Source: an uncultured Croceitalea sp.
GTDB lineage: Bacteria > Bacteroidota > Bacteroidia > Flavobacteriales > Flavobacteriaceae
NCBI GenBank assembly: GCA_947499565.1
Contig: CANMOV010000008.1
Span: forward strand, 1-64,000
DNA: 64,000 nucleotides
Direction of reading: 5' to 3'
The notes below the pieces were generated by a model. The model was given only the letters and a program-made list of their open reading frames with translations, was not told the DNA's origin and ran no database searches. Of this stretch, positions 34,679-61,606 are shown one piece after another. The stretch's first letter is position 1. Every line of letters begins with the position of its first letter. Both the position numbers and the translations under genes were made by a program.

Positions 34679-34709
34679 GTGATTTTTTATAGGTTTTGAA
34701 CACTAATTA
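34679..34709 (+). promoter_or_regulatory. GTGATTTTTT-N12-CACTAATTA element
   Basis: GTGATTTTTT (34679-34688), exactly 12 nt, CACTAATTA (34701-34709), 32 nt before the hydrolase ATG. One of four elements of the same pattern and spacing in the window (also 41221, 52364, 61576). It may be a promoter for an alternative sigma factor. Confidence 0.5.
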
Positions 34710-34741
34710 ATAATTGAAAGGTGTTAAATGAGTAATAGAAA

Positions 34742-35638
34742 ATGAAAAGAATCTCGCTGTTATTTCTAATTATCGGAATTGTTTATGGGTGTAAATCTGT
34801 TAAGGAACCCATAGAACTTAAGAAAGTAAATGCTAGAGGTTGGTATACAACCAATGGCACTGTAGCCGAATTTGACCCGAAAAACAAACATGTGGAAATA
34901 TGGGTTCCAAAAAAAAACAAAAATGCTCCTATTGTCATATATGCTCATGGTGGAGCTGGTTTTCGGGAAGATGACCAGGCACGAATAGAAATGTTAAGGA
35001 AGAACGGGTTTGCAACGATATCTTTTGATTCTTATGCAATGAATGGATTGGATTGGAATTTTGTCACGCGTCGAGTAACAAACAGCGGCAAGCAGAATTT
35101 AATCTGGGGCGTTTACAAGGGTGCAATTACGTATGTGCTTGAAAGTGATAAATGGGATACTCAAAATATATTCCTTTACGGAGCATCTAATGGTGGTAGA
35201 ACAGTATTATATGCTGGAAGCCAGTTTACCCATAGTAAAATTAAGGGAATAATTTCAGAAGCTCCTGCGGCAACTGGTTATACCCTTGAGGATGTTTCAA
35301 TTCCGACTATTGTTTTGTATGGTGAAAAAGATAATTGGGCTGGAAAATCGGAAACAGACTATGTCTGGACAAGAACATATTCTAATTCACCAATATCGAT
35401 AAAAGACTGGATAGATGCTCAACAAACAAAGAACAATCCAATTAAACTCATTCTGTATAAAGATGCTGGACATTTATTATTTGAAGGGCCACTTAAAAAA
35501 GTTACTGTTAAAAGAGGGGATAAAATTGCATTTTCAGCCTATCAAGGGGCTAGTGAAGAGGCTCTTATAAAATACAAAGAAGACCTAGTATCATTTATTA
35601 AGCATAATCAAGAAATCAAAAAACCCATCGAAGAATAA
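34742..35638 (+). CDS. alpha/beta hydrolase lipoprotein (dienelactone-hydrolase type)
   Basis: 298 residues. Lipobox IVYGCKS (Cys about 17). Hydrolase core: oxyanion strand VIYAHGGAGF, nucleophile elbow YGASNGGR with catalytic Ser, Asp region YGEKDNWAG, and His in DAGHLLFEG. Likely on the periplasmic or outer-membrane face. It precedes another hydrolase gene by 19 nt, probably in one operon starting at the 34679 element. Confidence 0.88.
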   Translation: MKRISLLFLIIGIVYGCKSVKEPIELKKVNARGWYTTNGTVAEFDPKNKHVEIWVPKKNKNAPIVIYAHGGAGFREDDQARIEMLRKNGFATISFDSYAMNGLDWNFVTRRVTNSGKQNLIWGVYKGAITYVLESDKWDTQNIFLYGASNGGRTVLYAGSQFTHSKIKGIISEAPAATGYTLEDVSIPTIVLYGEKDNWAGKSETDYVWTRTYSNSPISIKDWIDAQQTKNNPIKLILYKDAGHLLFEGPLKKVTVKRGDKIAFSAYQGASEEALIKYKEDLVSFIKHNQEIKKPIEE

Positions 35639-35657
35639 TGAAGCAGCTTTTTAAATA

Positions 35658-36665
35658 ATGATTATCGGTAAACCTAAGAAAATTTTAGTATCAGCTTTTA
35701 TAGTTATAACAATTGCATTTGTCTATACCAAATTAGACAAAACACCTTCAATAGAAAGTGTTAGTCAAGATTTGCTTGATTGGAAGTCAGAAGAGCTATT
35801 ATTCAATTATAAAGGCAAAACATTGTCTTATCATGACTCGGGAGGTGAATTTACAAAAGTAGTAGTGCTACTGCATGGTTATCCTACTTCATCTTTTGAC
35901 TGGCATTTGATTTGGCCAGAGCTTAAAACTCACTATCGATTAATTGCTATGGATATGTTGGGCTTTGGGTTTTCTGATAAGCCTAATGGTATAGATTATA
36001 GTATTGCTATGCAAACAGACATTCTAGAGTCTTTGTTGAAAAAACTTAATATTGAAAGTATAAATCTTATTGCACACGATTATGGCGACAATGTAGCTCA
36101 AGAACTTCTAGCAAGAAATATTGAGAAAAAAGAAGAATATCCGTTAAGAATAGAATCGGTAACCTTACTAAATGGTGGGCTATTTCCAGAAACTCACAAT
36201 CCAACAATTATTCAGTCGCTATTCTCTAGCCCAATTGGTGCGTTGGCGGCATCCTTTACTAATCAAACATTATTTAACAAAAGTTTCAATAAAGTTTTTG
36301 GACCGAACTCTAAACCAACCGCACAAGATTTAATAAATCAATGGTACATAATATGCCATCAAAAAGGATATAAAATAGCAGACAAACTAACTCATGCATC
36401 TTATGACCGCAAAAATAATAGAGAACGATGGGTAGGTGCTATAATAAACCCTCAAGTTCCTGTTCTATACATGAGTGGGCAACTTGACCCAGTCACTGGT
36501 ATGCAAACAGTGGATAGGTACCTAGAACTTGTTCCTCATCCAAATGTTATCACACTTGATGAAGTTGGTCACTACCCCCAACTAGAAAATCCTACTGAAG
36601 TATTGAAACAAATAAAGACACACATTACCAAGGTAGATTCTTCTAGCAATATCAAGCATAACTAG
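35658..36665 (+). CDS. alpha/beta hydrolase, haloalkane dehalogenase/epoxide hydrolase type
   Basis: 335 residues with an N-terminal membrane anchor (about 8-25). Oxyanion region LLHGYPTSSFDWHLIW; nucleophile elbow IAHDYGDNVAQ, where the nucleophile is Asp (HDYG), as in dehalogenases and epoxide hydrolases rather than serine esterases; acid/His part GQLDPVTGM and DEVGHYPQLENP. It probably attacks an epoxide, ester or halide; which cannot be told. Follows the dienelactone-type hydrolase. Confidence 0.88.
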   Translation: MIIGKPKKILVSAFIVITIAFVYTKLDKTPSIESVSQDLLDWKSEELLFNYKGKTLSYHDSGGEFTKVVVLLHGYPTSSFDWHLIWPELKTHYRLIAMDMLGFGFSDKPNGIDYSIAMQTDILESLLKKLNIESINLIAHDYGDNVAQELLARNIEKKEEYPLRIESVTLLNGGLFPETHNPTIIQSLFSSPIGALAASFTNQTLFNKSFNKVFGPNSKPTAQDLINQWYIICHQKGYKIADKLTHASYDRKNNRERWVGAIINPQVPVLYMSGQLDPVTGMQTVDRYLELVPHPNVITLDEVGHYPQLENPTEVLKQIKTHITKVDSSSNIKHN

Positions 36666-36934
36666 ATATAATTGAACTGTAGTTTAAAAACAAACAACAA
36701 ATAGATTTATATAAAAAATATGTGATAGTTTGATTTATAAGAAATAAAGAGTAATAATTAATAAATATTCATATAGAAATTGCGAAAACCGTATAATTGA
36801 AACAGGTAAAGATGAAACTTGCAATAATTTAATATCAAAAACTCCAACTTGCTGAAATCAAAGGAATTGTATGAATGGAAGAGAATTTATATTAATCAAC
36901 TTTTAAAGAAGCTTTAGGTAATAATCTCTTTACT

Positions 36935-37627
36935 TTAAATTAAACCCTTTAAATTCATTTTATACGCCCTTCCTAGTGGAATTTTATGCTCAGAAATATG
37001 GGCAATATTTCCTTCAATTGAGTTTATCTTGTTAAAGGCAACAATAAAAGACTTATGTACCCGAATAAAATTATTTTTTGGTAGCGCAGTTTCAAAGAAA
37101 GATAATGATTCTGAAGCTGTAATTATTTGCGATTCACAATGTATTTTGACTAAACCCGCAATACTTTCAACAAACAAAATATCATCCAGTATAAATTGAT
37201 GTAGCTTTTTATTGCCTTTAACAAAAAGTGTTTTTGATACTACAGAATTTGTTTCAATCTTATCACTTTTTATGGAAGATGCCCGCAATTTGCCTATGGC
37301 CTTTAAAAATCTCTCAAGACTAAAGGGCTTTAATAAATAGTCAACTACATTCAATTCGTAGCCTTCTAATGCGTATTCTTGATAAGCTGTTGTAATAATT
37401 ACTTCTGGAGGATTTTGAAGTGTCTTTAAAAAATCCAATCCTTTAAGCCTAGGCATTTCAATATCTAAAAATATAAAATCGACTGATGATTTTTGAAGAT
37501 AATTGATAGCTTCCAATGCGGTGTAGCATTGTTTTTTTAACTTCAAGTATTCTAGCTCTGCAGAATAAGTCATAATGATATCGTGTGCTATCGGCTCATC
37601 ATCAATAATTAAGTAGGACAAATTCAT
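36935..37627 (-). CDS. LytTR-family response regulator (second system)
   Basis: 230 residues. Receiver domain with Asp in FIFLDIEMPRLKG, Thr in TTAYQEYALEGYELNVVDYLLKPFSLERF; LytTR domain from about 135 with LHQFILDDILFVESIAGLVKIHCES and FIRVHKSFIVAFNKINSIEGN, ending KIPLGRAYKM. Its start overlaps the stop of its kinase gene by 1 nt. Confidence 0.94.
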   Translation of the reverse strand: MNLSYLIIDDEPIAHDIIMTYSAELEYLKLKKQCYTALEAINYLQKSSVDFIFLDIEMPRLKGLDFLKTLQNPPEVIITTAYQEYALEGYELNVVDYLLKPFSLERFLKAIGKLRASSIKSDKIETNSVVSKTLFVKGNKKLHQFILDDILFVESIAGLVKIHCESQIITASESLSFFETALPKNNFIRVHKSFIVAFNKINSIEGNIAHISEHKIPLGRAYKMNLKGLI

Positions 37628-38385
37628 TATTTAAAAATTTTTAAAGTTGCTTTAAAGATATTATCCTTTGCCACTAGGTTAAGTTCATATTTATTAGGGT
37701 ACAATAGAGATAATCTCTTTTTTAAATTATCAAGACCAATTCCTTGTTCATTCTTTTCATCTGCATCAAAAGAGTTCTCTACCTGAAGACAGATTTCGGT
37801 ACTAGAATCTTGACAGGAAATTTTAACAAAAGCATCTTTACCCAGCTTTTCAGAACCATGTTTAAAAGCATTTTCCACTAGAATAATAAATAATAGTGGT
37901 GCAACCTTATATTTTGGATTTTTAATCCGTTTTACAAACGTAATTTTTGATGCTTTAACCAATCTTATCTCTTGTAAGGAAATAAAAGATTCCATATAAT
38001 TTACTTCCTCCTCCAAAGTAACAAGTTCTTCTTTTCCTTTATAAATAGTATAGCGCATCATTTCAGAAAGCCCCAATATAACTTCGGGTGCTTTCTTTGA
38101 ATTTTTAATGGTTAATCCATATAAGTTATTTAGTGTATTAAAAAAGAAATGAGGGTTGATTTGGCTTTTTAGCAAGGCCAAATCTGCTACGAGTTTTTCC
38201 TGCTGTAATGCTTTAAATTTCTGATGATATCTTATTCTTTCTAGGAAGAACAAAACGACAACAATAAATACACTTGTTAATGCCCATATTATAAAATGAA
38301 CTTCTTTTTCCAATATGATTAGTGGTATCAATAAACCTATTAAAACGAGGTAGTATAAACTGTATTTTTTAATGTGTAAAATCAT
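37627..38385 (-). CDS. LytS-type sensor histidine kinase (second system)
   Basis: 252 residues. Two membrane helices in residues 10-50, then LKSQINPHFFFNTLNNLYG (phospho-His), N-box LVENAFKHGSEKLGKD and G-box GIGLDNLKKRLSLLYP. It has no sensor domain, so it likely reads membrane state or a partner. Divergent from a serine hydrolase gene; the shared 215-bp intergenic region carries a possible LytTR-site. Confidence 0.94.
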   Translation of the reverse strand: MILHIKKYSLYYLVLIGLLIPLIILEKEVHFIIWALTSVFIVVVLFFLERIRYHQKFKALQQEKLVADLALLKSQINPHFFFNTLNNLYGLTIKNSKKAPEVILGLSEMMRYTIYKGKEELVTLEEEVNYMESFISLQEIRLVKASKITFVKRIKNPKYKVAPLLFIILVENAFKHGSEKLGKDAFVKISCQDSSTEICLQVENSFDADEKNEQGIGLDNLKKRLSLLYPNKYELNLVAKDNIFKATLKIFK

Positions 38386-38463
38386 AATTAAACAACAAAA
38401 CTATTGTGTTTCTATATATATTCTTAATAATACTAATAAACAGTACTATTTGGGTATTGAACG

Positions 38464-38493
38464 ACAGTTTTTGAATAGCATACACCAGTTATG
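38464..38493. promoter_or_regulatory. possible LytTR site between kinase and serine hydrolase
   Basis: ACAGTTTTT (38464-38472) and CCAGTTATG (38485-38493) lie 21 nt start-to-start. They match the LytTR 9-bp consensus at 8 and 7 positions, with 12 nt between them. Position between divergent genes would allow control of both. Weaker evidence than at the first system. Confidence 0.35.
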
Positions 38494-38599
38494 ACTTTAC
38501 TAGTGCTGTTTAGGTTACAATTTTGGTTGTTTAATTAGAATAGTTTTTTGTTACGTATTAGCTTTTCATTTTTGCTATGAATTACATGATAAAATAATT

Positions 38600-40102
38600 A
38601 TGAAACGATTTATTAAACCAATACTATTACTTCAGTGGATATTGCTATTTTCGGCTTGCTCTAGTGCTCAAGTTACAAACGATAAGACTCAAAAAGCGAA
38701 AAAATTCGAGCAATTATTCAAGTACTCATCTGAGAATAACATTTTTAACGGTTCTATTTTAATAATAGAAAATGATAAAGTGCTTTATAAAAAGTCATTT
38801 GGTGACAATGGCGAAAAAGCTCGCACTCCTATCACATCCAATTCTCAGTTTTTATTAGCCTCGTTGAGTAAACAATTTACTGCCATTGGAATCATGATTT
38901 TACAGGAACAAGGAAAGCTTAATTATGATGATAAAGTACTAATTCATTTGCCAAACTTTCCTTATGAGGAACTAACGATTAGACAACTGCTAAATCAAAC
39001 TTCAGGAATTCCAGAATATCAGCAGTTATTGAATAGAAAATTCTCGGATTTTAAAAAAGCATTTGACGAGAAAGGAGAAGTCATTGATAATACTTTCGTA
39101 TATGAATTATATAAAAAGTACAAACCAGAATTAGGTTTCATGCCTAATAAAAAGTTTGATTACAGTAATACAAATTATGTCTTTTTGGCTTTGGTAATCG
39201 AGGCAGTAAGCAATACTTCCTTTACAAAATTTATGGAACAATATGTTTTTAATCCTTTAGAGATGGAACATACGTTTGTTTATTCTAAAGAGAATGAAAT
39301 AAAATTTTCAAATCGAACTTACGGCTATAAGCAAACAACAAATGAAAAAAATAGAGAATCTAACGATAGATATCCTTTTATAAATATTGTTGGCGACGGT
39401 GGAATTTATAGCACCTTAAATGATTTAGAGAAATGGGTTAGTGCACTTCATGAAAATACATTGTTAAGTAAAGCCAACTTGGATAAAGCTTTTACCGTTC
39501 CAAAATTATCAAATGGTGAATCTGGACCTTACGGGTTTGGGTGGTTCGTTAGAAAGCTTCCCTTTAATGGAAATAAGGCATTAACACATTCGGGAGAATT
39601 TGTAGGGTTTTCCAATGCCTTTTTTAGCGACATGAAAGACAGAAGTTCAATAATAATGTTGAGTAATAATTCTTCTGAATATAGACCTCAATTGAATAGT
39701 GCTATGGTAAGGATATTGTATAATATGCCTTACGAGCTTCCCAAAATTAATATCGCAGAAGTTATTGGTAAAGTCCTTCTCGAAAAAGACATTGAATCAG
39801 CAATCAATAAATACAATAAACTAAAATCTGAAGATTCAGACTCCTATGATTTCAGTGAAAAACATCTAAATAGATTAGGGTATGATTTGCTAGAACTTAA
39901 ACAAGTAAGTGATGCTATCGAGATTTTTAAGCTGAATGTTTTAAACTACCCTGAATCCTCAAATGTCTATGACAGTTTAGGAGAAGCATATTTATTGGCT
40001 AATCAAAAGGAAAAAGCATTGAAGAATTATCAAAAAGCATTGTCTTTAAATTCTGAAAATGAAAATGCTGCCAAAACAATTAAAAAACTCAAAGAACGGT
40101 GA
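38600..40102 (+). CDS. serine hydrolase (class C beta-lactamase-like) with TPRs
   Basis: 500 residues. Lipobox LLFSACSS. SxxK motif is ASLSKQF (Ser88, Lys91), second motif YSNTNY, third motif HSGEFVGF. The C-terminal third has TPR-like helices (LGYDLLELKQVSDAIEIFKLN, YDSLGEAYLLANQKEKALKNYQKAL). Such proteins act on D-amino-acid peptides or esters outside the cytoplasm. True beta-lactam hydrolysis is not implied. It overlaps the next hydrolase gene (GTGA). Confidence 0.9.
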   Translation: MKRFIKPILLLQWILLFSACSSAQVTNDKTQKAKKFEQLFKYSSENNIFNGSILIIENDKVLYKKSFGDNGEKARTPITSNSQFLLASLSKQFTAIGIMILQEQGKLNYDDKVLIHLPNFPYEELTIRQLLNQTSGIPEYQQLLNRKFSDFKKAFDEKGEVIDNTFVYELYKKYKPELGFMPNKKFDYSNTNYVFLALVIEAVSNTSFTKFMEQYVFNPLEMEHTFVYSKENEIKFSNRTYGYKQTTNEKNRESNDRYPFINIVGDGGIYSTLNDLEKWVSALHENTLLSKANLDKAFTVPKLSNGESGPYGFGWFVRKLPFNGNKALTHSGEFVGFSNAFFSDMKDRSSIIMLSNNSSEYRPQLNSAMVRILYNMPYELPKINIAEVIGKVLLEKDIESAINKYNKLKSEDSDSYDFSEKHLNRLGYDLLELKQVSDAIEIFKLNVLNYPESSNVYDSLGEAYLLANQKEKALKNYQKALSLNSENENAAKTIKKLKER

Positions 40103-41145: not shown

Positions 41146-41220
41146 ATTGAAGTTTAACTGAGACTTCTCCGACTGACTCTATACTCTTATGATTAAAAAC
41201 ATTAAAAAATAGATTATAAT

Positions 41221-41251
41221 GTGACTTTTTATAAGTCTCGAACACTAATCA
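41221..41251 (+). promoter_or_regulatory. GTGACTTTTT-N12-CACTAATCA element
   Basis: GTGACTTTTT (41221-41230), 12 nt, CACTAATCA (41243-41251). Same architecture as at 34679, 52364 and 61576, but here it ends only 4 nt before the ATG of the SBBP gene. That is too close for a normal -10 and is a point against the promoter reading for this copy. Confidence 0.45.
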
Positions 41252-41255
41252 ATAT

Positions 41256-42680
41256 ATGAAACAAACAATAGTATTAATTATAATTATGTTATATGCATTT
41301 AGCAAAGTGCAATGCCAAAAGTCACTACCTGTAATCACCTATTCGACTTATTATGGAAGTATGGGAACCGATGACGCCGACGCCGTAACAGTTGATTTAG
41401 ATGGAAATATATATCTAGGTTGTCATTCAAATTCTTCAAATCTACCAAGAGTAGAAAAAAATCCATACACTCTCAAAGGAGGAATGGATGCTTTTCTTAT
41501 TAAATTGAATGCTAAAGGTGATAAAGTAGCATATTTGGCACAATTTGGTGGCTCTAAATGGGACGCTATTCAAGGTCTTATTTCAGATGATAAAGGGAAT
41601 ATCTATGCAGTTGGAACCACCTATTCGCAAGATTTCCCTATTCACAAGAACGGATTTCAAACAAAATTTGGAGGAAAGAGTGATGCCTTTTTGCTTAAAA
41701 TAAATTCACTTGGTGAATTAGTCTGGTCAACCTTTTTAGGAGGTAGTCAAGACGAAGACGGAAGAGATGTTAAAATTGATAGACAAGGTAATGTTCATAT
41801 TATCGGAAGAACGGAATCTTCTGATTTTCCAATCTCGGATAACGCCTTTCAATCTCGATTAGCCGGTGGTAGAGATGTATTTATTACAACATTTAACTCA
41901 AAAGGAAAACTATTGATGTCAACTTGTTTAGGTGGGTCAGGAAACGATACGGGCTTTTCATTAGCTATTGATAGTATGGGGCGTTGTATAATTTCAGGAA
42001 CAACAGATTCATCTGATTTTCCAATAAAAAGCCCACTTCAAGAAAGTAACTCTGGAGCTAATGATATTTTTTTAGCAGTTTTTGATAAAACACTATCAAA
42101 TCTGGAATTTTCTAGTTATTTAGGCGGAAAAGAAAACGACCAACTTTATGGTATTGATATTGGACCTAAAGGTGATATATTCTTAATGGGAATGACAAGT
42201 TCCTTAGATTTTCCAACCACTAAAGATTCATTTCAAACAACATTTAACGGAGAAAGAGATGTCTTTGTAACTAGATTAAATTTACGAAAAAATAGAATCG
42301 TATACTCAACTTATTTAGGAGGAAAAAGCGCTGAAAGCCCTAGAAATTTTGTAGTTGACAAAAAGGGTATCGCATATATTATAGGTCAAACGAATTCATC
42401 CAATTTCCCAATTGTAAGTAATCAAAAGGTAAAGTTAAATGGTCGTTCCGATGCGTTCATTACGATGCTCAACTCAAAAGGCTCTTTCCTAATTTATTCA
42501 AATATTTTTGGAGGAGAAGGGACAGAAATGTTTGAAGGCATAGCCATTGGTGCTGATGGAGCATTAACATTATCCGGATTATCGAATTCAAAGGATTTCC
42601 CCGTAAAGAATTCAATTCAAGATACTTTTATGGGAGGACGATTTGATATTGTCGTTATGCGTCTTAATGGATTAAATTAA
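41256..42680 (+). CDS. SBBP beta-propeller repeat protein
   Basis: 474 residues with a signal peptide (about 1-20, ending KVQCQ). About eight SBBP-type repeats of roughly 50 residues follow, each with a YSTYLGG or LAQFGGS-type strand, xDFPI or xDFPT turns, an FQxxxxGxxDxFxxxLN unit and a Gly-Gly. The repeats form a beta-propeller; function is unknown, perhaps adhesive or binding at the surface. No T9SS C-terminal domain is seen. Confidence 0.88.
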   Translation: MKQTIVLIIIMLYAFSKVQCQKSLPVITYSTYYGSMGTDDADAVTVDLDGNIYLGCHSNSSNLPRVEKNPYTLKGGMDAFLIKLNAKGDKVAYLAQFGGSKWDAIQGLISDDKGNIYAVGTTYSQDFPIHKNGFQTKFGGKSDAFLLKINSLGELVWSTFLGGSQDEDGRDVKIDRQGNVHIIGRTESSDFPISDNAFQSRLAGGRDVFITTFNSKGKLLMSTCLGGSGNDTGFSLAIDSMGRCIISGTTDSSDFPIKSPLQESNSGANDIFLAVFDKTLSNLEFSSYLGGKENDQLYGIDIGPKGDIFLMGMTSSLDFPTTKDSFQTTFNGERDVFVTRLNLRKNRIVYSTYLGGKSAESPRNFVVDKKGIAYIIGQTNSSNFPIVSNQKVKLNGRSDAFITMLNSKGSFLIYSNIFGGEGTEMFEGIAIGADGALTLSGLSNSKDFPVKNSIQDTFMGGRFDIVVMRLNGLN

Positions 42681-42693
42681 ACAATAAATAAAG

Positions 42694-43269: not shown

Positions 43270-43276
43270 GTATCTT

Positions 43277-47646: not shown

Positions 47647-47927
47647 TAAGTTTCATATATGAGGCAGATTAGAATAGCATTATACTCTCAAAAAAACATT
47701 AAATCCCGATATATAAAAAAGAAAGCCCGCAATCCGTTTATAATCAGTTACTCGTCTAAATCATCTATTTAAGGTCCTACACTTAAAAGTTTATAACACT
47801 ATACTACATCGTAAGTTTTTTAATGAACTCGATTAGTTAACCAATGGTTGCCTAAAGCTTCGAATTTTTTTTCATTCAGAAGTGTTATAAATTAAAATTT
47901 CCGTCACTAATCAAATAAACAAGAACC

Positions 47928-49316
47928 ATGAAAAAAATAGCTATGTTATTTATGCTTTTTTGCAGCTTTGCGATGAGCAGTCAGGAAATTGTTGGTGATT
48001 GGAGTGGAACTCTCAAAACCCAGGGAATGGAATTAAGGTTAGTATTCCACATTTCAGAGGCAAATAACATTCATTCCGGCACATTGGATAGTCCTGACCA
48101 AAAAGCATTTGGCATACCCATAAGTTCAATAAATTTAAAGAACAGTAAGATTACCATCTCATTGGATAAATTAAGGGCAATTTATAATGGAACTTTAGGG
48201 GATAGTGGAATAATTATTGGTACTTTCAATCAGGGAGGTCAATCATTTAAATTAAACCTCTCTAAAGACAAACTTACTGAAAGAGTTTTAGAAAGACCTC
48301 AAGAACCTAAAAAACCTTTTCCTTACTATTCAGAAGATGTTACTTTTTTAAGTGAAGGTGGAAGTGTAAAGTTGTCAGGTACCTTAACGTTACCAAGTAA
48401 GAATGGGAAATTTCCTGTAGCCATTTTAATTAGTGGTAGTGGACCGCAGAATAGAGATGAAGAATATATGACGCACAAACCATTTTTGGTACTGTCAGAT
48501 TACCTAACAAGAAAAGGAATTGCAGTATTAAGGTATGATGATAGAGGTTTTGGAGAATCCACTGGCAACCACAATACTGCTACTTCTCTTGATTTCGCAT
48601 TTGATGTAAAATGCGCAATAAACTATTTAAGAACTAGAGATGAAATTAATAAAAACCAAATAGGTTTAATCGGACATAGTGAAGGAGGATTAATTGCGCC
48701 CATTGTTGCTTCGGAAATGGAAGAAGTTGATTTTATGGTATTGCTAGCTGGTCCGGGTGTTTCTGGAAGCGAAGTTGTTCTTCAACAGTTGAAAGCTACT
48801 GCCGAATTAAACAAAATGACATCTGAAGAATTAGAGGGGGAAACCGAGTTTCTAAAAGGAATTATTAAAATTCTTTCTCGAGAAAATAAGAATGTTTTTA
48901 AAAGACAACAGCTAAAGACATACTTTAAGTCACAACTTAGTGAGCTTGATGATATCAATGGAATGAATAAGGCAGAATACATCGATTCGAATATTGCACA
49001 ATTAATGAGACCTTGGTATTTATATTATATTAAGCACGAGCCTTCAAAATACCTAAAGCAGGTAAAATGCCCTGTATTTGCTATTAATGGTAGTAAGGAT
49101 AGTCAAGTTGTTCCTGAAAATTTAAATTTCATAGAAAGCGCATTGAAGGTTGGAGGTAACAAAGATGTTACTATAAAAGAATATGAAGAAATGAATCATC
49201 TATTTCAAAAATGTGAAACCGGTGCTATCAGTGAATACGCTTCAATAAGTATAACTATGGATTCTCAGGTTCTAGACGATATATCAAAATGGATTTTAAA
49301 AATGGTAAATGAGTAA
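47928..49316 (+). CDS. secreted alpha/beta hydrolase with N-terminal beta domain
   Basis: 462 residues. Signal peptide (about 1-18), an N-terminal beta-rich domain (about 19-125: GDWSGTLKTQGMELRLVFHI), then the hydrolase (about 130-460): LISGSGPQNRDEE, nucleophile elbow IGLIGHSEGGLIAP, Asp region AINGSKDSQVVPE and His in YEEMNHLFQK. Periplasmic. It overlaps an ECF sigma-factor gene by 8 nt, an unusual gene partner. A degenerate copy of its 3' end lies at 51785. Confidence 0.9.
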   Translation: MKKIAMLFMLFCSFAMSSQEIVGDWSGTLKTQGMELRLVFHISEANNIHSGTLDSPDQKAFGIPISSINLKNSKITISLDKLRAIYNGTLGDSGIIIGTFNQGGQSFKLNLSKDKLTERVLERPQEPKKPFPYYSEDVTFLSEGGSVKLSGTLTLPSKNGKFPVAILISGSGPQNRDEEYMTHKPFLVLSDYLTRKGIAVLRYDDRGFGESTGNHNTATSLDFAFDVKCAINYLRTRDEINKNQIGLIGHSEGGLIAPIVASEMEEVDFMVLLAGPGVSGSEVVLQQLKATAELNKMTSEELEGETEFLKGIIKILSRENKNVFKRQQLKTYFKSQLSELDDINGMNKAEYIDSNIAQLMRPWYLYYIKHEPSKYLKQVKCPVFAINGSKDSQVVPENLNFIESALKVGGNKDVTIKEYEEMNHLFQKCETGAISEYASISITMDSQVLDDISKWILKMVNE

Positions 49317-49800
49317 AGACTTTTACAAATCATATATATATCCCCATCTGGGAATCATCATAAAGATTTGTAGAGCCTATACAAATACCCAAGAAGATTT
49401 TGAAGACTATTTTCAAGAGGTTTGTTTACAGATATGGAGAAGTAAAGCAAATTTTAATGAACAGTCTGCTTGGTCAACTTGGGTCTACAGATTAACATTG
49501 AATGTTTGTTTAACATTTACCAGAAAAAAGAAAAGAAATGTGACCGTTATAGATAATATAGAACACAATGAAATCGATGACGACTACGAAAGTGCATTTA
49601 CCAGTGAGTCTTTTAGAATGTTGAATGAAGCAATTAAAAAACTTTCTAAACTAGACAGAGCAATTATTTTACTGTACCTAGAAGAAAAGTCATATAAGGA
49701 AATTGCAGAAATAATAGGTTTAAGTTCCGGTAATATTGGTACTCGGATAAATAGAATTAAGAATCGCTTAAAAAAAATATTAAATGGAAAAATCTATTGA
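49309..49800 (+). CDS. ECF sigma factor (cassette copy 1)
   Basis: 163 residues. Region 2 (about 12-75: AYTNTQEDFEDYFQEVCLQIWRSKANF then AWSTWVYRLTLNVCL) and region 4 (about 105-155: LSKLDRAIILLYLEEKSYKEIAEIIGLSSGNIGTRINRIKNRLKK). It lacks extra domains. It starts inside the end of the hydrolase gene and ends inside the start of a membrane protein (17 nt), so the three are strongly coupled. Confidence 0.94.
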   Translation: MSKDFYKSYIYPHLGIIIKICRAYTNTQEDFEDYFQEVCLQIWRSKANFNEQSAWSTWVYRLTLNVCLTFTRKKKRNVTVIDNIEHNEIDDDYESAFTSESFRMLNEAIKKLSKLDRAIILLYLEEKSYKEIAEIIGLSSGNIGTRINRIKNRLKKILNGKIY

Positions 49801-50425
49801 AAATATATGGAGGCAAGAGTTTAAGTTTAATAAAGAGCTTATTCCTGATTCGCATGATTTACAAAATCAGAAATCAAAAGATATTTTTGATAGAATGACT
49901 AGGTCAATGAAAAAGAATACTGCTATGTTGATGATTTTCGCATTGGGGTTTTTAGTATTTGTTTATTTTTCTGAAGCCCCATTGGTATTAGGGATTTTGA
50001 TTTTTTTATTCTTCAATTCTTTAGCACTATTCAATTTTAATCAAATAGAAAAGGCGGAAAAAATCAATAAAACCGCAACTAGTTATGAATACCTTATTAA
50101 GTTTAGAAACCAACTTAACAAATTAATTGGATTGAATATGAGGTTTAACAGGTTTGTATATCCAATCTGCATGTTAGTGGCTAGTATTATTTTATGGTTT
50201 TCTTATGGTAGAGAAGCTATTATGGAAAAACTATTCTTAAAGTTTCCTGATATGGTTCTAATAAATGGAATTCCAGTTTATTTCCTAATTGCCGTATTGA
50301 TATTATCTGTCTTACTTTCTGTTTTTTCTGCTAAAATTTATAAGTGGGAAGTGAATTTATTTTTCAAGAATTTGATTGATGAACTTGAAGAAATCATACA
50401 GCAAATGGAAGAACTTAAAAATTAA
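49784..50425 (+). CDS. membrane protein, likely anti-sigma partner
   Basis: 213 residues. A cytoplasmic N-terminal stretch (1-45) precedes four predicted helices (about 45-65, 68-85, 120-140 and 165-185); the C-terminal 30 residues are coiled-coil-like (LIDELEEIIQQMEELK). Topology and tight overlap with the ECF gene fit an anti-sigma factor, though no zinc-binding anti-sigma motif is seen. The second sigma copy lost this gene. Confidence 0.7.
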   Translation: MEKSIENIWRQEFKFNKELIPDSHDLQNQKSKDIFDRMTRSMKKNTAMLMIFALGFLVFVYFSEAPLVLGILIFLFFNSLALFNFNQIEKAEKINKTATSYEYLIKFRNQLNKLIGLNMRFNRFVYPICMLVASIILWFSYGREAIMEKLFLKFPDMVLINGIPVYFLIAVLILSVLLSVFSAKIYKWEVNLFFKNLIDELEEIIQQMEELKN

Positions 50426-51473: not shown

Positions 51474-51836
51474 AAGTAGTTAAAGGTTATTACCATGTAG
51501 TATATTCCTCAATAGTTGTTTCAAGTCCATAAAGTACAAAATGATTTGTATATCCTTTTACCCCGACTTTTTTAGCTTAGGACATACTTAAATTAGAGCT
51601 CTTCTTTCTGGTGAAAAAGAGTAAAGTAAGATGGATTATTTTACATAGGTAAAAAATATTAAACCCCCTTCTTTTTAATTTTCAGCACTAATTAAATGGA
51701 TAAATCTATAGGTAGTTTTTGAACCTTTTTACATAAACTCAGTCCTTAATGAAAAACATAGTTTATTCCTTCCCAAACATGGTAATGCATTTTCTAGTAT
51801 TAAAAGAGGCATCAAAATGGGTTTTAAAAGTTATGG
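51474..51836. other. intergenic region with a decayed hydrolase
   Basis: Most of the region has no ORF. Near 51675 a CACTAATTA-containing stretch resembles the front of the hydrolase at 47928 and may be the promoter remnant of its lost second copy. The 3' end of that copy is listed at 51785. Confidence 0.5.
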
Positions 51837-51844
51837 ATGAGTAA
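51785..51844 (+). pseudogene. 3' remnant of a second hydrolase copy
   Basis: Encodes MHFLVLKEASKWVLKVMDE then TAA, aligned residue by residue with the hydrolase end MDSQVLDDISKWILKMVNE (49257-49316). It overlaps the ECF gene exactly as in the intact cassette (GAGTAAAG at the junction). The rest of that hydrolase is gone. Confidence 0.85.
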
Positions 51845-52325
51845 AGATTTCTATCAAGCATATATTCTTTCTAATTCGGGAATCATCACAAAGATTTGCA
51901 GAATCTATACAAATACTCAAGAAGATTTTGAGGACTATTTTCAAGAGGTTTGTCTTCAGATATGGAGAAGCAAAGAAAATTTTAGAGGAGAGTGCGCATG
52001 GTCTACTTGGGTTTATAGATTAACACTAAATGTTTGTTTAGCATTCAATAGGAAAAATAAAAAAAATCTAATTTTTTTAGATAACAAGGTCTATTATGAG
52101 ATATACGAAGATTATAAGGGTGAATTTACCAATGAATCGCTCAGAATACTTAATGACGGAATTAAAAAACTATCTAAACAAAACAGAACAATTATTCTAT
52201 TATACCTCGAAGAAAAATCATATCAGGAAATTGCAGAAATAATAGGATTAAGTAAGAGCAATATTGGTACTAGAATAAATAGGGCTAAGAATCAATTGAA
52301 AAAAATATTAGATGGAAAAATCTAG
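51837..52325 (+). CDS. ECF sigma factor (orphan copy 2)
   Basis: 162 residues, close paralogue of the sigma factor at 49309 (same DFEDYFQEVCLQIWRS, AWSTWVYRLTLNVC and EEKSYxEIAEIIGLS blocks). The downstream gene is missing: after ATGGAAAAATCTA (52313-52325), shared with the anti-sigma start, the sequence diverges. So this sigma factor has lost its hydrolase and its anti-sigma-like partner. The four-member GTGAYTTTTT element begins 39 nt after its stop. Confidence 0.93.
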   Translation: MSKDFYQAYILSNSGIITKICRIYTNTQEDFEDYFQEVCLQIWRSKENFRGECAWSTWVYRLTLNVCLAFNRKNKKNLIFLDNKVYYEIYEDYKGEFTNESLRILNDGIKKLSKQNRTIILLYLEEKSYQEIAEIIGLSKSNIGTRINRAKNQLKKILDGKI

Positions 52326-52363: not shown

Positions 52364-52394
52364 GTGATTTTTTAGAGAAATGGGATACTTATTA
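52364..52394 (+). promoter_or_regulatory. GTGATTTTTT-N12-TACTTATTA element
   Basis: GTGATTTTTT (52364-52373), 12 nt, TACTTATTA (52386-52394), 23 nt before the lipoprotein ATG. Same architecture as at 34679, 41221 and 61576. Confidence 0.55.
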
Positions 52395-52417: not shown

Positions 52418-52603
52418 ATGAAAAAAATAATTTTAGTTGTGTGTTTAGTTGGGCTATTTGTTGGTTGTACAATGAATCCAAGTAAAGAAGAGCGGATTCA
52501 AAAACTTGAAACTGAAATCAAATTAACTACTGAAAAAGTTAAAGAACTCGAAAATAAAGTTAAAAAGCTTGAAGAATTATATGAGCAACTAGAGCGGAAG
52601 TAA
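52418..52603 (+). CDS. small coiled-coil lipoprotein (copy A)
   Basis: 61 residues. Signal and lipobox LFVGCTM (Cys18); the rest is a charged coiled coil with heptad-like Leu (SKEERIQKLETEIKLTTEKVKELENKVKKLEELYEQLERK broken into two heptad blocks). The same short lipoprotein recurs at 61643 and, truncated, at 62404. Role unknown; Lpp-like or entericidin-like tethering is possible. It follows the orphan sigma gene and its element. Confidence 0.82.
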   Translation: MKKIILVVCLVGLFVGCTMNPSKEERIQKLETEIKLTTEKVKELENKVKKLEELYEQLERK

Positions 52604-53544: not shown

Positions 53545-53549
53545 TATTT

Positions 53550-54008: not shown

Positions 54009-54097
54009 GACAGCTAAAAAAAGCCAGTAGATAACATTTTATATAATCAATTTGGTGCTCAAAACTATTTTGTTCGTCTTTAAAAGCAACGTATTAA

Positions 54098-54892: not shown

Positions 54893-54899
54893 ATAAAAT

Positions 54900-55994: not shown

Positions 55995-56007
55995 TAACTA
56001 CATCGAT

Positions 56008-57264
56008 ATGAAATTTATAGTTGCTCTACTAATTACCACATCATTATACGCTCAAACAGATAGTTCTACAGAATATTATAGACACCTGAGATATAATCAT
56101 GTATCGCCTTGTGCAGATGTAGTTGGTATTCATCCTATAGACAGGATAACAGCTCAAAGCACATCTCATTATATTTTTAGAATAAACAAATCAGGAAAAC
56201 CAGTTGAGATTATCAATAATCATTATCATACAGAGAAAAAGCATCCATTGGCTTCAATAGGTGCTTATAAAACAAGAATTATTTACAGCGACAGTAAAGA
56301 AATTAGAACCTTCTATGACCCCAGTGGTAAACAAATAGCTAACGATAGAGGTGTTTACAAAGAGGTGTATTTTTTAGACTCTAAAAAGTTCAAATATAAA
56401 TTGCAGTTTTTTGATTTACATGACAACCCAATGGAATCTAATTGGAAGATTTCAAAATATATATGGAACAAAAAAGGCAAACTTATCATTGAAAAAAGAT
56501 ATAACCTGTTAAGTGAAGAGGTAAACGTATCTCCTTATTTCAAGTTTGGAATTACGGGCATTTTACTGGATAGAGAAGGTGTTCCAAAAGTACATTACAA
56601 TTTAGATGACAAGCTAAAAAAAACAAATAATGCTGAAGGTATAGCATCATATCAGGATGTATTTGATAGCCAAGGCAATCATATTAAATTTAGCTATCAT
56701 GACAAAAACGGAGATTTAGCAGAAACCCCAAGAGGGTTTGCCATTGCTGAGAAAATTTATGATGATATCGGGAACCAAATTGGGTTGAAAAGATATGATA
56801 TCAATAAAAATCTGATTTTAGATTTCCCTGTTTTTTCCAATAGCAAAAAACCAATAGAACCAAGTGCTACCCAAAAAGACTCACTAGAAATAAGGGATAG
56901 AGCTTTAGGATATTTGATAGCACTTCAACAATTAAAACCTGATTTAATGAATGAGGTAATGAATGATAGTTTAAATAAAGTAACTATTGGTTATGATAGA
57001 GGTGCTAAACAAGAATATGCTCGTAGAACTACAAGAAATCAAATGATTGAATTTGCAAACTCATGGAATAAGGCAAACAATAAGTTTCCTCCAAAGCCAA
57101 GCAACGATGCAAAGATTCTTGATATATACAATCGGATAGCAAATGTAAAACTGGTTTCCGACAATTGGGTTGAATATCTACATTTAATAAAACTCGACGG
57201 CAATTGGCAGATAATAAATCTTATTTGGCAACATAGAGATATTAGTAGATACCCGAAAGAATAA
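56008..57264 (+). CDS. exported repeat protein with C-terminal NTF2-like domain
   Basis: 418 residues with a signal peptide (about 1-16, ending LYAQ). The middle has repeats with DxxGN cores (DRGVYKEVYF, DSQGNHIKFSYHDKNGDLAETPRGFAIAEKIYDDIGNQIG), like the YD/RHS-type beta repeats. From about 295 the C-terminus fits a lumazine-binding/NTF2-like domain (ALGYLIALQQLKPDLM... LKLDGNWQIINLIWQH). No known function. Starts 13 nt after the esterase. Confidence 0.7.
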   Translation: MKFIVALLITTSLYAQTDSSTEYYRHLRYNHVSPCADVVGIHPIDRITAQSTSHYIFRINKSGKPVEIINNHYHTEKKHPLASIGAYKTRIIYSDSKEIRTFYDPSGKQIANDRGVYKEVYFLDSKKFKYKLQFFDLHDNPMESNWKISKYIWNKKGKLIIEKRYNLLSEEVNVSPYFKFGITGILLDREGVPKVHYNLDDKLKKTNNAEGIASYQDVFDSQGNHIKFSYHDKNGDLAETPRGFAIAEKIYDDIGNQIGLKRYDINKNLILDFPVFSNSKKPIEPSATQKDSLEIRDRALGYLIALQQLKPDLMNEVMNDSLNKVTIGYDRGAKQEYARRTTRNQMIEFANSWNKANNKFPPKPSNDAKILDIYNRIANVKLVSDNWVEYLHLIKLDGNWQIINLIWQHRDISRYPKE

Positions 57265-57279
57265 CTAAAAACACTATGA

Positions 57280-57957
57280 ATGAAGAACTCTTATTTTTTA
57301 TTACTTATCACACTTGTCGCCATATCATGTGTAAACAACACATCCAAAAAAAATCAAATTCATAATGATAATTACCTTGTTGCAGTTCTAGACACTATTT
57401 GGAGGACTGAACAAGAACCTCTGAATTCAAGAGACTCAATTGGAAGGATTCATGGATTTGAATCGCCTCAGTTTAAAGAACAGCAGTTAATATGTGATGC
57501 GAACCATGCTATTAACGAAAAGAAAATAATTGAGATTTTAGAATTGATTGGATGGCCAAATGGAGCTGCCATTAAAGAACAACAGAACTTAACCATTTGT
57601 AATGTTCTTCAACATTCAGGTATTGAAATAAGAAAAAAGTACCTGCCTTTGATGAAAGATGCAGTTAATAATGGTGAATTACAAGCAAGATTTCTTGCTC
57701 GAGCTGGGGATAGATTGGCAACAGACGAGGGTGGATTACAGGTCTACGGCGGGCAAATGAAATATTACTCGGAAACAAAAAGCTTTAATCTGTGGCCAGT
57801 TTTAGATCCTAAAAATATTGATAAAAGGCGAGCGAAAATTGGACTTGAACCAATAGCTGAATATTTAAAAAATAGATTTGATTTTGAATGGAATCTTGAA
57901 GAGCAGATAAAAAGAACCGCTGAGTTTGAAAAAGAGACTAATAAGACGCACAATTAA
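57280..57957 (+). CDS. DUF6624 lipoprotein
   Basis: 225 residues. Lipobox VAISCVN. DUF6624 hallmarks: DTIWRTEQEPLNSRD, then ILELIGWPNGAAI, VLQHSGIEIRKKYLPLMKDAVNNGE, and LARAGDRLATDEGGLQVYGGQM. The function of the domain is unknown; it is common in Bacteroidota accessory regions. An upstream ATG at 57275 is out of frame. A partial copy of the 3' end of this gene is at 63572-63663. Confidence 0.82.
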   Translation: MKNSYFLLLITLVAISCVNNTSKKNQIHNDNYLVAVLDTIWRTEQEPLNSRDSIGRIHGFESPQFKEQQLICDANHAINEKKIIEILELIGWPNGAAIKEQQNLTICNVLQHSGIEIRKKYLPLMKDAVNNGELQARFLARAGDRLATDEGGLQVYGGQMKYYSETKSFNLWPVLDPKNIDKRRAKIGLEPIAEYLKNRFDFEWNLEEQIKRTAEFEKETNKTHN

Positions 57958-58044
57958 TTAGTTTCCAATAAGAGAATTTATATTTCATTTGTTGTAAATA
58001 AGGTACTATAAACAGCTGTTTAACAAACATAAAAGACTAGAAAA

Positions 58045-59982
58045 ATGAATAAATTGACACTATTCTTCTTAGGGCTCGTACTTTTAACAAGTTGCAGTGA
58101 GTCCAATAAAAATGGAAATCAATTATTAGAAATACTGAGTAATAAATCTCAAGTAATTCTTAAAAAGGAAGGTTTAATATTTAGAGATTTAAATAAGAAC
58201 CAAAAATTGGACATCTATGAAGATGTCAATCAATCCATTGAAGCAAGGATTGAAGATTTGTTAAGCCAGATGAATCTAGAAGAAAAAGCAGGTATGATGT
58301 TCATCAATGGGGTGCCTGTCAGCACTGATGCTGCACCTGACGGCAAGGAAGGCCTTAAAGGATTTGTGGCGACCCTACCCTCGATAACGGAAAATATGAA
58401 CACCAGAAAAATGACCCATTTTAATATATGGGACATTCCATCTGACCTAAATATCTTCGCCAAATGGTACAATAATGTTCAGGAAGTTGCCGAAAAAACC
58501 AGATTGGGCATTCCTATAACCATTGCTTCTGACCCTCGACATCATTTTAATCAAAATACGATTGAGATGGCTTCAACAGGTTTTACCCAGTTTTGTGAAA
58601 TGCCCGGTTTTGCAGCCATCGGCGATGAAAAATTAGTTAGGGAGTTTGCGACTATTGTTCGCAGAGAATATATCGCCATTGGTATTAGGGAAGCATTGCA
58701 TCCCCAAGTTGACCTAGTAACAGAACCTCGATGGGCAAGGATTAATGGGAGTTTTAGTGAGGATGCTGTATTAACAGCGCGATTAGTGAAGCCATATATT
58801 GAGGGCTTACAAGGTGAAAAGCTAAGTAACGGTGTGGCTTGTATGACCAAACATTTCCCTGGTGGTGGCCCTCAGAAAGAAGGTTTAGATCCCGATTTTT
58901 CATTTCAAAAAGGACAAATCTATCCAGGCGACAACTTTGAGTATCACCTGATTCCGTTTGAAGCGGCTTTCGAAAGCAAAACTGCCGCAATTATGCCGTA
59001 TTATGGTGTACCAACAAATCAAACCGACGAAAATGTTGCTATGGCCTACAACAAAACAATTATTACGACACTATTAAGAGAAAAATACAACTATGATGGA
59101 GTGGTTTGTACAAATTGGGGATTAATTACTGACATACCTTTGGGGCAAGACGTAGTATGGGAAGCAAGAGCTTGGGGTGTAGAAAATTTAACCGAAGCGG
59201 AAAGGGTATTTAAGGTGATTGACGCGGGTTGTGATCAATTTGGCGGAGAAAGCCGAACAGAATTAGTATTACAATTGGTATCTGAGGGCAAATTGCTAGA
59301 AAAAAGAATTGACCAATCCGTAAAGCGCTTACTGAGACAAAAATTCGAGTTGGGTTTGTTTGACAACCCTTTTGTGGACGAAATGAAAGTGAACGAAGTC
59401 ATTGACTCAGAAACCTCAAAAGCGTTGGGAGAGAAAACACAACAACGTTCCATGACCCTACTCAAAAATGACAACGCGACGCTACCTTTGGAACAAAAAA
59501 AACATAAAGTCTTTATCAAAAACTTAGACAGCGTAACCGTCTCCAAATATGCTGAAGTAGTAATGTCTCCAGAATCTGCCGATTTTGCAATTATTAGAAT
59601 AAATACCCCATGGTATGCAGTTGAAACAAAAAACTTCATTGCAGCGTCCTTCCATCATGGCGATCTGGATTTTAAAGGAGAAGAAAAAGAGAAAATTTTA
59701 AAGTTGCTAAAAACGGTGCCGACTATAGTTGATATCTATTTAGACAGGCCGGCTGTCATTCCAGAGATTACAGAATCAGCAGCAGCAGTTATTGCAAATT
59801 TTGGAGCAAGTGATAGTTCCGTATGTGAAGTTCTTTTTGGAAATTCTGAACCCCAAGGGAAATTACCTTTTGAATTGCCTTCATCAATGGAAGCTGTGGA
59901 TAACCAAAAAACAGATGTACCCTACGATAGTAAAAACCCGCTATTTAAATTCGGATTCGGATTAAAATATCAAAAAAAATAA
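58045..59982 (+). CDS. GH3-family glycoside hydrolase lipoprotein with Asn at the nucleophile site
   Basis: 645 residues. Lipobox LLTSCSE. GH3 N-terminal barrel (about 55-400) with KHFPGGGPQ and the region YDGVVCTNWGL, where the catalytic Asp of the usual SDW or TDW motif is Asn357. GH3 C-terminal domain (about 430-640: LLKNDNATLPL, FGFGLKY). The acid/base Glu cannot be assigned reliably. If N357 is really at the nucleophile position, the enzyme may be inactive or use another mechanism. Exported; probably acts on beta-glucosides or related glycans. Confidence 0.88.
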   Translation: MNKLTLFFLGLVLLTSCSESNKNGNQLLEILSNKSQVILKKEGLIFRDLNKNQKLDIYEDVNQSIEARIEDLLSQMNLEEKAGMMFINGVPVSTDAAPDGKEGLKGFVATLPSITENMNTRKMTHFNIWDIPSDLNIFAKWYNNVQEVAEKTRLGIPITIASDPRHHFNQNTIEMASTGFTQFCEMPGFAAIGDEKLVREFATIVRREYIAIGIREALHPQVDLVTEPRWARINGSFSEDAVLTARLVKPYIEGLQGEKLSNGVACMTKHFPGGGPQKEGLDPDFSFQKGQIYPGDNFEYHLIPFEAAFESKTAAIMPYYGVPTNQTDENVAMAYNKTIITTLLREKYNYDGVVCTNWGLITDIPLGQDVVWEARAWGVENLTEAERVFKVIDAGCDQFGGESRTELVLQLVSEGKLLEKRIDQSVKRLLRQKFELGLFDNPFVDEMKVNEVIDSETSKALGEKTQQRSMTLLKNDNATLPLEQKKHKVFIKNLDSVTVSKYAEVVMSPESADFAIIRINTPWYAVETKNFIAASFHHGDLDFKGEEKEKILKLLKTVPTIVDIYLDRPAVIPEITESAAAVIANFGASDSSVCEVLFGNSEPQGKLPFELPSSMEAVDNQKTDVPYDSKNPLFKFGFGLKYQKK

Positions 59983-60196
59983 AACTGAAAAAGCGCCCTT
60001 TTACCCATCTATGATTTCGAAGTCTGAAGCTTCACCTTACATAATAAATTACTTTAAATGGTTAAGCTTAAAAAAATAATGATTAATAAAAGTTATGATT
60101 AAATACATCCCAATTTGCATTTAAAGGCATGATAAACAGGTCCCTTAATAAACACTGACATTCAAAATAATAATGATAAAAAAACTTCAAAACAAT

Positions 60197-60474
60197 AAGA
60201 TAGGAGTTTCAAAAAAAAATTCGATTTTCCAATTTTCGTACGCTGTTAAAGCTGAGTTATTAGACGCAACTGATTTTCCACCGCTTACGAGACAACTCGA
60301 TAGCTTTTTAAAAATCAAAAAATGTTCTTCGGATATTTTGTAAATGATGAATTAGTAAGAATTATTGAGCTTGAATATAGCAATATATGCACTTATATAA
60401 TTCCTAGAAATTAAACAATGGGATACAGACTTTGGAATTAGAAAAATATTATTTGAAAGACAAATAAATAACTA
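60197..60474 (+). pseudogene. decayed GNAT acetyltransferase gene
   Basis: Two frames join to a GNAT-like protein: first FQFSYAVKAELLDATDFPPLTRQLDSFL..., then after a frameshift near 60320 MFFGYFVNDELVRIIELEYSN. A later frame gives W-D-T-D-F-G-I-R-K-I-L-F-E-R-Q and a stop at about 60474, like the C-terminus of this family. Motif A (acetyl-CoA loop) is missing. The remainder of 59983-60504 has no gene. Confidence 0.7.
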
Positions 60475-60504
60475 GTGATAAACGTATTCCAAAATTTAAC
60501 TCTA

Positions 60505-61410
60505 ATGAATAAATTTCTACTCTTCTTAGCAATCATTTTTTTTGGTCTTTGCTCATGCTCCCAAAAAGAAAATCAAAGCGTAAAACTCGAATTAGATATT
60601 TCAAAAAATGAAAAAAGAAAATTCACTCTACCAGACTCAGAGATATTTCCTATAAAGTCGAATCATACCAATAAAGAATATGACATTTATGTGAAATTAC
60701 CTAAAGGACATGGTAAAACGGATAAAAAATATCCTATTTTGGTATTAACTGATGCTGGATATGCCTTCCCTTTAGTATCAAGTATTTATAGAAGACTTAA
60801 GTTTTCAAAAAACATAAACGAAATTATAATTGTCGGAATATCCTATGCAAAAGGCGAACATTTCGGTATTTCCAGAACCCGAGATTATACACCTACTTAT
60901 TCACCTAATGAATCTAATGGATACTCTAAAGAAGCTAGATTGAGTTCTGGACAAGCTGATAGTTTTATCATGTTTATGAAGAATGAACTTATTCCTTATT
61001 TGGATAGTAACTACAGCTTAGACATGAATAAAAAGGTTTTTGCAGGACATTCTTTAGGTGGTTTATTAGCTAACTATATTGTTTTAAGTTATCCAGAAAC
61101 ATTTGATTACTATATATCAGGTAGTCCTTCGTTTTGGTATCATAATAAATCCATTTTTAAAATTGAAGAAGAATTTCATCGAAATAATACCGATTTGAAA
61201 ACAAATCTATTTATGGGCATAGGCGCCCTTGAGGATATTGAAGGTGGACATCAAATGGTGTCAGATATGAAGGACTTTGAAAATAAATTGATTAATAGAA
61301 ATTACAAAAGTTTGAACCTTCAAAGTATGGTCTTCCCAAATGAGAATCACCAAACTGTTTATCCAACATTTATTACAAAAGGAATGTTATGGGCATTCAA
61401 AAAAGAGTAA
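60505..61410 (+). CDS. esterase-D-like alpha/beta hydrolase lipoprotein
   Basis: From the ATG at 60505, 301 residues with lipobox FGLCSCSQ. Esterase core: PILVLTDAGYAFPLVSSIYRRL, IIVGISYAKGE, nucleophile elbow FAGHSLGGLLANYIV and a His in NENHQTVYP. It resembles ferri-siderophore or feruloyl esterases. A GTG at 60475 extends the ORF by ten residues, but MNKFLLFLAIIFFGLCSC is the natural signal. Confidence 0.9.
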   Translation: MNKFLLFLAIIFFGLCSCSQKENQSVKLELDISKNEKRKFTLPDSEIFPIKSNHTNKEYDIYVKLPKGHGKTDKKYPILVLTDAGYAFPLVSSIYRRLKFSKNINEIIIVGISYAKGEHFGISRTRDYTPTYSPNESNGYSKEARLSSGQADSFIMFMKNELIPYLDSNYSLDMNKKVFAGHSLGGLLANYIVLSYPETFDYYISGSPSFWYHNKSIFKIEEEFHRNNTDLKTNLFMGIGALEDIEGGHQMVSDMKDFENKLINRNYKSLNLQSMVFPNENHQTVYPTFITKGMLWAFKKE

Positions 61411-61575
61411 TTGTAAATATCAATGTATTAAAAGCATAAATTAATTTATTAGTTACATTCATTTTAAAAAATAGTAGTTGCAGCATTATCCTCTTTCACT
61501 TCTCAACGAAACGGCCATTGAAAAGTATTTCAGGGAGAGGAATTATATACCGTAATAATTTTTTTTACTAACAGT

Positions 61576-61606
61576 GTGATTTTTTGAGTAAATCATATAC
61601 TTATTA
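61576..61606 (+). promoter_or_regulatory. GTGATTTTTT-N12-TACTTATTA element
   Basis: GTGATTTTTT (61576-61585), 12 nt, TACTTATTA (61598-61606), 37 nt before the lipoprotein ATG. Identical -35-like and -10-like parts to the copy at 52364. Confidence 0.55.

Follow-up and report, generated by a model that had tools for sequence, protein, structure and literature searches.

A two-part element shared by exported-protein genes in a Croceitalea genome is probably the promoter of an autoregulated clade of ECF sigma factors

Results

Four copies of a two-part element precede genes for exported proteins

We analyzed bases 1-64000 of contig C8 (CANMOV010000008.1; 82,590 bases) from the 3.88-Mb genome of an uncultured Croceitalea sp. 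(GCA_947499565.1); this whole stretch is referred to as the window. An earlier note on its sequence had described an invariant two-part element, GTGAYTTTTT-N12-YACTWATYA, ahead of four exported-protein genes, and had compared it to the -35 and -10 boxes recognized by an alternative sigma factor, possibly of the extracytoplasmic function (ECF) type. Exact matching places the four copies, all on the plus strand and all with a gap of precisely 12 nt, at 34679..34709, 41221..41251, 52364..52394 and 61576..61606. The putative boxes are GTGATTTTTT and ACTAAT, with a separation of 17 nt between GTGATT and ACTAAT. A chance origin of the four copies can be ruled out, as 100 shuffles of the window gave no copy at all, and the exact pattern has no further match in the genome.

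The downstream genes are those that had been named. They encode a hydrolase lipoprotein (34742..35638, plus strand, Pfam BD-FAE), an exported SBBP beta-propeller protein (41256..42680, plus strand, Pfam SBBP) and two small lipoproteins of 61 amino acids (52418..52603, plus strand) and 73 amino acids (61643..61864, plus strand), which are paralogs with 52% identity. All four are predicted targets, with 34, 6, 25 and 38 nt, respectively, between the -10 box and the ATG. The third copy begins 39 nt past the 3' end of an ECF gene (51837-52325), and the second ends only 4 nt before the ATG at 41256, both as reported. Searches found no Rfam RNA or tRNA at the element sites. A five-codon open reading frame (ORF; ATG..TGA, 34728-34745) lies just downstream of the first copy and extends over the start codon of the hydrolase lipoprotein gene; it could be a translational leader.

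The element precedes a third ECF gene and its orthologs

The C8 region contains three ECF genes. ECF_A and ECF_B are in the window and are described below; the third, ECF_C (C8:67567-68052, minus strand), lies just beyond it and matches TIGR02937 with 78.5 bits (cut-off 42.9). Its ATG is 18 nt past the -10 box of a further copy of the element, at 68070 on the minus strand. Behind ECF_C lie genes for a membrane protein of 199 amino acids and a hydrolase of 466 amino acids. The membrane protein has several hydrophobic segments and a homolog in 73 of 74 relatives' loci, and is a putative anti-sigma factor of ECF_C.

We searched 299 genomes of the family with ECF_C and examined the best 30 loci, own genome included. 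By script, the element was found before the ECF gene in 29 of them, and in the thirtieth (L043) by eye. The matrix scan assigned L043 an 11-nt spacer by misplacement; a spacer of 13 fits. The L043 spacer is one base longer than usual, and those of L052 and L063 are one base shorter. Distances from the element to the ATG are mostly 16-21 nt (67 in L066). Leave-one-out scores exceeded those of all 30 shuffles of the same locus in 30/30 cases, most narrowly for L043 (5.3 versus 3.4). In a second set of 80 loci from named genomes (L157-L236, partly repeating genomes of the family collection; L159 apparently repeats G269), a promoter with a score of at least 13 was present within 150 nt for 42 of the 47 closest loci (L157-L203) and for 4 of the 33 others. 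Lutibacter, Winogradskyella, Aquimarina, Algoriphagus and Hufsiella are represented among these loci.

A search with the exact pattern TGTGATTTTTT-N13-ACTNAT gave 37 matches in 31 of 397 family genomes, compared to 8 for a backward control pattern. Apart from the present genome, 30 genomes had a match, and 29 of these matches could be examined (the match in G307 had no locus); 21 of the 29 sit 13-26 nt upstream of an ECF_C ortholog. In G032, the single exact site (L277, 1501-1530) precedes a 32-aa ORF by 23 nt, and the ECF_C of that genome is about 33 kb away.

Because the element precedes ECF_C orthologs in relatives, there is strong evidence, at the level of sequence, that it represents the promoter of an autoregulated ECF clade (clade C), for which the general form would be TGTGATTTTTT-N12-YACTWAT. 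The suggestion of an alternative sigma factor is very probably right, since orthologous ECF genes are preceded by the element across many genomes.

Ten sites cluster on one contig

A scan matrix built from the promoters of 29 relatives, with the own genome left out, identified ten sites on C8: 34679+, 41221+, 52364+, 61576+, 68070-, 68427-, 68495+, 73722-, 73790+ and 76773+. Their scores range from 18.6 to 32.2, while the next score on C8 is 13.4 and the reversed contig gives 13.1 at most. Together they span 34679-76803, or about 42 kb, with four in the window and six beyond. The list of four was therefore correct but incomplete, and "invariant" applies to the window copies but not to the full set, which fits the looser GTGAYTTTT-N13-YACYNRT. 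The window elements themselves score 26.2, 24.6, 24.5 and 24.5 in order of position, within the range of the clade C promoters (17.1-32.2 for 29 of 30; 11.2 for L043).

Nine of the ten sites face an ORF with an ATG start. In addition to the four window genes, these are the ORFs of ECF_C and of a DUF1330 protein, that of a 233-aa protein whose N terminus has a hydrophobic segment (a hydrolase gene comes next), that of a helix-turn-helix (HTH) protein with a 132-aa ORF behind it, and that of a membrane protein of 134 amino acids. Ordered from 34679 to 76773, the gaps between -10 box and ATG are 34, 6, 25, 38, 18, 24, 78, 78 and 61 nt.

Scanning of the full genome and of relatives showed clustering on C8 and placement before ECF orthologs, respectively, and no random genome-wide spread. 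All six matches with 0-1 mismatch are on C8, which also holds 3 of the 11 two-mismatch matches. When up to three mismatches are allowed, the genome total is 70, versus 71 for the backward control. A genome-wide regulon in this genome was rejected, because outside C8 the count is at control level. Two of the three-mismatch matches (G000:C3:217504-217534 and G000:C3:685229-685259) both combine GTGACTTTTTT with TGTCTWATTT; by appearance, they are promoters of a different ECF factor of the same genome.

The promoter appears to have multiplied locally

Seven exact sites in the present genome compare with exactly one in each of the 30 other matching genomes. A comparison of eight genomes from the genus, this one among them, gave seven sites here, one each in G176, G300 and G304, in every case before the ECF_C ortholog, and none in the remaining four. 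The neighborhoods of 27 relatives (10.8-19.9 kb) agree: 26 have exactly one site with a score of at least 15, which is the autopromoter, and the other (L132, from the genome of L043) shows none, its spacing being outside the scan.

Two of the other targets recur in other genomes. The DUF1330 gene beside ECF_C is kept together with a site (score 22.0) only in L195, the sole such locus of 74. The 61-aa lipoprotein has a homolog in G026 with a site of its own (score 26.8), on a different contig from the ECF gene of G026. G036 has the other clear lipoprotein homolog, and no site was present in the stretch examined at one of its two copies.

Traces of duplication are found around the sites. A 46-nt promoter copy is shared between 34674 (34674-34719) and 41216 (85% identity), and a 55-nt copy between 52356 and 61568 (73%). 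Two divergent pairs, 68456/68495 and 73751/73790, have an equal distance of 38 nt and 63 of 100 identical bases. The region also holds a duplicated ECF cassette and fragments of lipoprotein and other genes, including a remnant of a small-lipoprotein gene (62416..62493, plus strand; repeat family D5, 77%; weak match over 62380-62481). As promoter and gene duplicates lie close by, local copying of the promoter is a fair inference from the sequence. Other partial duplicates within the window (57876-57960 and 63582-63666, 86%; 33913-33969 and 34501-34558, 89-94% in pieces) show a stretch that has been remodeled by duplication and decay.

A leaderless mRNA may arise from the 41221 copy

The short distance of the 41221 copy from its ATG had been taken as a misfit for a simple promoter. 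The distance is real, but the objection lapses if the mRNA is leaderless. Transcription from ECF promoters usually starts 6-8 nt downstream of the -10 box, so the 6-nt gap would put the start on or near the ATG at 41256, and the promoter may give a leaderless mRNA. The 46-nt promoter copy at 41216 has its end within the opening codons of the SBBP gene. A later start codon appears unlikely, because the predicted signal peptide requires the ATG at 41256.

ECF_A, ECF_B and the clade A promoter

The two ECF genes of the window, noted earlier as paralogs, do share 73% identity. ECF_A (49309..49800, plus strand; clade A by sequence) and the orphan copy ECF_B (51837..52325, plus strand) both have Pfam sigma-70 r2 and r4 domains and match TIGR02937 with 100.2 and 88.1 bits, respectively (cut-off 42.9); they are 39-41% identical to ECF_C. 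ECF_A is preceded by a hydrolase gene (47928..49316, plus strand) whose product shares 42% identity with the hydrolase encoded behind ECF_C, and followed by a gene for a membrane protein with hydrophobic segments (49784..50425, plus strand), a putative anti-sigma factor with homologs beside clade A ECF genes; it matched no Pfam or NCBIfam family. A 300-nt repeat (family D1, 78% identical to 49257-49556) marks ECF_B as belonging to a degenerate second copy of the hydrolase-ECF_A cassette, in which the ECF gene has lost its partner gene. The repeat begins 52 nt upstream of ECF_B, within the last codons of the lost hydrolase, leaving a hydrolase 3'-end remnant (51785..51836, plus strand) joined to ECF_B.

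Relatives of ECF_A were found in 34 of 299 genomes at E-values up to 1e-38, own included, and the best 30 loci, again including the own genome, were surveyed for promoters. The relatives' promoter is TGTAAT(A)AT-N11-CACTAAY, with a TGTAA-type match by script in 26/28. The four window elements differ from the clade A type in having G as third -35 base (instead of A) and N12 (instead of N11). On C8, only two sites resemble the clade A class. The best on the contig is GTAATAAATT-N11-CACTAAC (33412..33439, plus strand; one mismatch to the clade A consensus), 8 nt upstream of ORF 33448. The other, GTTATAAATT-N11-CACTAAT (47884..47911, plus strand; two mismatches, third base T), lies 16 nt upstream of the hydrolase-ECF_A operon. 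No promoter was found for ECF_B. In six further loci (L220, L228, L230, L232, L233 and L236), TGTAAC with an ACTAAT-like -10 box occurs upstream of another ECF gene of the family. It seems that several ECF clades of Bacteroidota have this -10 box in common and differ in the -35 box.

A possible link between a helix residue and the third -35 base

Of 140 ECF factors, 83 have T and 57 have V at one column of the predicted -35-reading helix. Among the T-type factors, 69 have G as third -35 base and one (ECF_A) has T, and in 13 the base was not found; among the V-type factors, 50 have A, and in 7 the base was not found. Shuffled upstream regions match in 1.6%. The pairing of T with G and of V with A is a possible specificity rule, although its basis is about one independent contrast, as only two changes on the tree are needed. 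The column corresponds by alignment, with residues counted by hand, to S172 of Escherichia coli sigma-E and T171 of Bacillus subtilis SigW. According to PMC6713349, these residues contact base -34 in crystal structures. When GTGAY is aligned with GGAAC, the varying base would fall at -33 rather than at the contacted -34, so a direct residue-base contact is only putative.

All 28 aligned clade A relatives have V, whereas ECF_A (GLSSGNIGTR) and ECF_B (GLSKSNIGTR) have T, and the rule predicts that both would also read GTGA. In a quick tree without the helix columns, which contained 28 of 29 relatives (L121 was dropped due to an internal stop in the match), ECF_A and ECF_B nest inside clade A. 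In a careful tree, however, a placement outside the 28 relatives was not rejected (approximately unbiased (AU) test, p 0.449). This weakens the case for a V-to-T switch in the two factors, and T may instead be the old state.

Discussion

Autoregulated ECF operons are of a well-known kind, and it is highly probable that the element belongs to one, with ECF_C holoenzyme reading it and the locally multiplied promoter forming the ECF_C regulon. From the observed positions of the sites, their conservation before ECF genes and their clustering, we infer transcription, an anti-sigma role, a signal and a copying mechanism as follows. RNA polymerase with ECF_C would read the promoter (-35 GTGATTTTTT, -10 ACTAAT) and activate the operon of sigma factor, membrane protein and alpha/beta hydrolase, together with nine more promoters within about 34 kb, including the four of the window. 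An envelope signal would free ECF_C from its membrane partner, so that lipoproteins, hydrolases and membrane proteins are turned on together. The promoter would have multiplied locally in this genome, probably through short and segmental duplications, and the sister factors ECF_A and ECF_B may use the same sites.

Several observations weigh against this model. Eight of the 29 examined exact matches are not before an ECF gene, which is about the level of the backward control (8 in 397 genomes); one of the eight is the G026 lipoprotein site. The 199-aa membrane protein has no match among the families of Pfam and NCBIfam. No ATG ORF of at least 30 aa lies within 260 nt of 68495+, where the sole ORF ahead encodes a LytTR domain and begins with GTG about 100 nt downstream, and three sites are 61-78 nt (from the -10 box) away from the first ATG of an ORF of at least 30 aa. 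A looser pattern adds matches in relatives (four in G102 and three in G200, versus eight here), and 5 of the 8 extra loci that were looked at fall inside ORFs. Finally, three homologs of the hydrolase encoded at 34742 (one here and two elsewhere; 199 genomes searched) lack a site, which would also fit promoter gain at the C8 copy.

The earlier note had paired the element with the two ECF genes of the window. One could accordingly suppose that ECF_A and ECF_B are the main readers and that ECF_C chiefly serves its own promoter. Both genes are located among the sites, both products carry the T-type helix otherwise seen in the GTGA-reading clade, and the ECF_A operon promoter lacks the third base A of clade A. 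Yet all ten sites show the N12 spacing and the -35 box of the ECF_C clade, the promoter ahead of the ECF_A operon has N11 spacing, and ECF_B is a duplicate without partner gene or recognizable promoter. We consider this division of labor unlikely. As sole readers the two factors were rejected, given that clade A relatives use a different promoter; the best-matched clade is that of ECF_C. Cross-recognition of ECF_C-class sites by ECF_A and ECF_B is possible, and to this extent the original pairing may stand.

Transcription-factor binding would likewise account for a two-part motif of fixed spacing, and perhaps more easily for sites 61-78 nt from an ATG. However, the motif precedes sigma factor genes, and sister ECF clades retain ACTAAT while varying the -35 box jointly with the helix predicted to read it, which makes such binding sites very improbable. 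Least credible of all is that the copies are repeats, derived from a mobile or recombination element, whose likeness to a promoter is accidental: clustering on one contig, shared flanks in some copies (46 nt, 85%; 55 nt, 73%) and two divergent pairs of equal geometry are what one would expect from such repeats, but other matching genomes hold a single exact site, mostly before an ECF_C ortholog, and the spacers mostly differ among copies.

Recognition by ECF_C, the reading that we prefer, would place the system close to autoregulated ECF (group IV) sigma factors such as sigma-E and SigW. The relationship is seen in sequence matches (sigma-E 1or7, E-value 1.1e-14; SigW 5wuq, 3.7e-11), in the ECF fold, in a membrane protein encoded next to the sigma factor and in a promoter before its own operon. 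In contrast, the boxes here are GTGATTTTTT and ACTAAT, the membrane partner has no match to a known family, and the predicted regulon crowds around the sigma factor gene. The -35-facing helix also aligns with theirs (PMC6713349). Among Bacteroidota-specific families, the GFO_1088/PG0214 family (NF058625) is the top NCBIfam match of ECF_A and ECF_B and also matches ECF_C, but with 77.4, 71.5 and 55.4 bits, respectively, all three remain below its cut-off of 130. A literature search, which did not reach the main papers on ECF classification and specificity, found no publication giving this promoter.

Mobile promoters and promoter propagation are known concepts for prokaryotes. The present case is similar in that one promoter stands before unrelated genes with short shared flanks, and different in that it is limited to 42 kb around a sigma factor gene, with copying as a putative mechanism. 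We propose, as a tentative view about which we have more doubt than confidence, that a normally single-target autoregulated ECF factor became the center of a regional regulon through local promoter copying, and that one promoter came to be shared by three sigma factors, since the two sister factors in the region have the same type of -35-reading helix.

In Bacteroidota, this system offers a sigma factor that can be tested jointly with its promoter and with a likely membrane partner, and the pairing of helix T/V with G/A at the third -35 base is a simple and testable rule, based on about one independent contrast. With 30 other genomes holding a single exact site each, versus a cluster of seven (ten by matrix) here, the region is a clean case for studying the growth of a sigma factor regulon. 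If the proposal is true, short duplications would have put one promoter before about nine neighboring transcription units, and regulon growth would track distance from the sigma factor gene rather than gene function.

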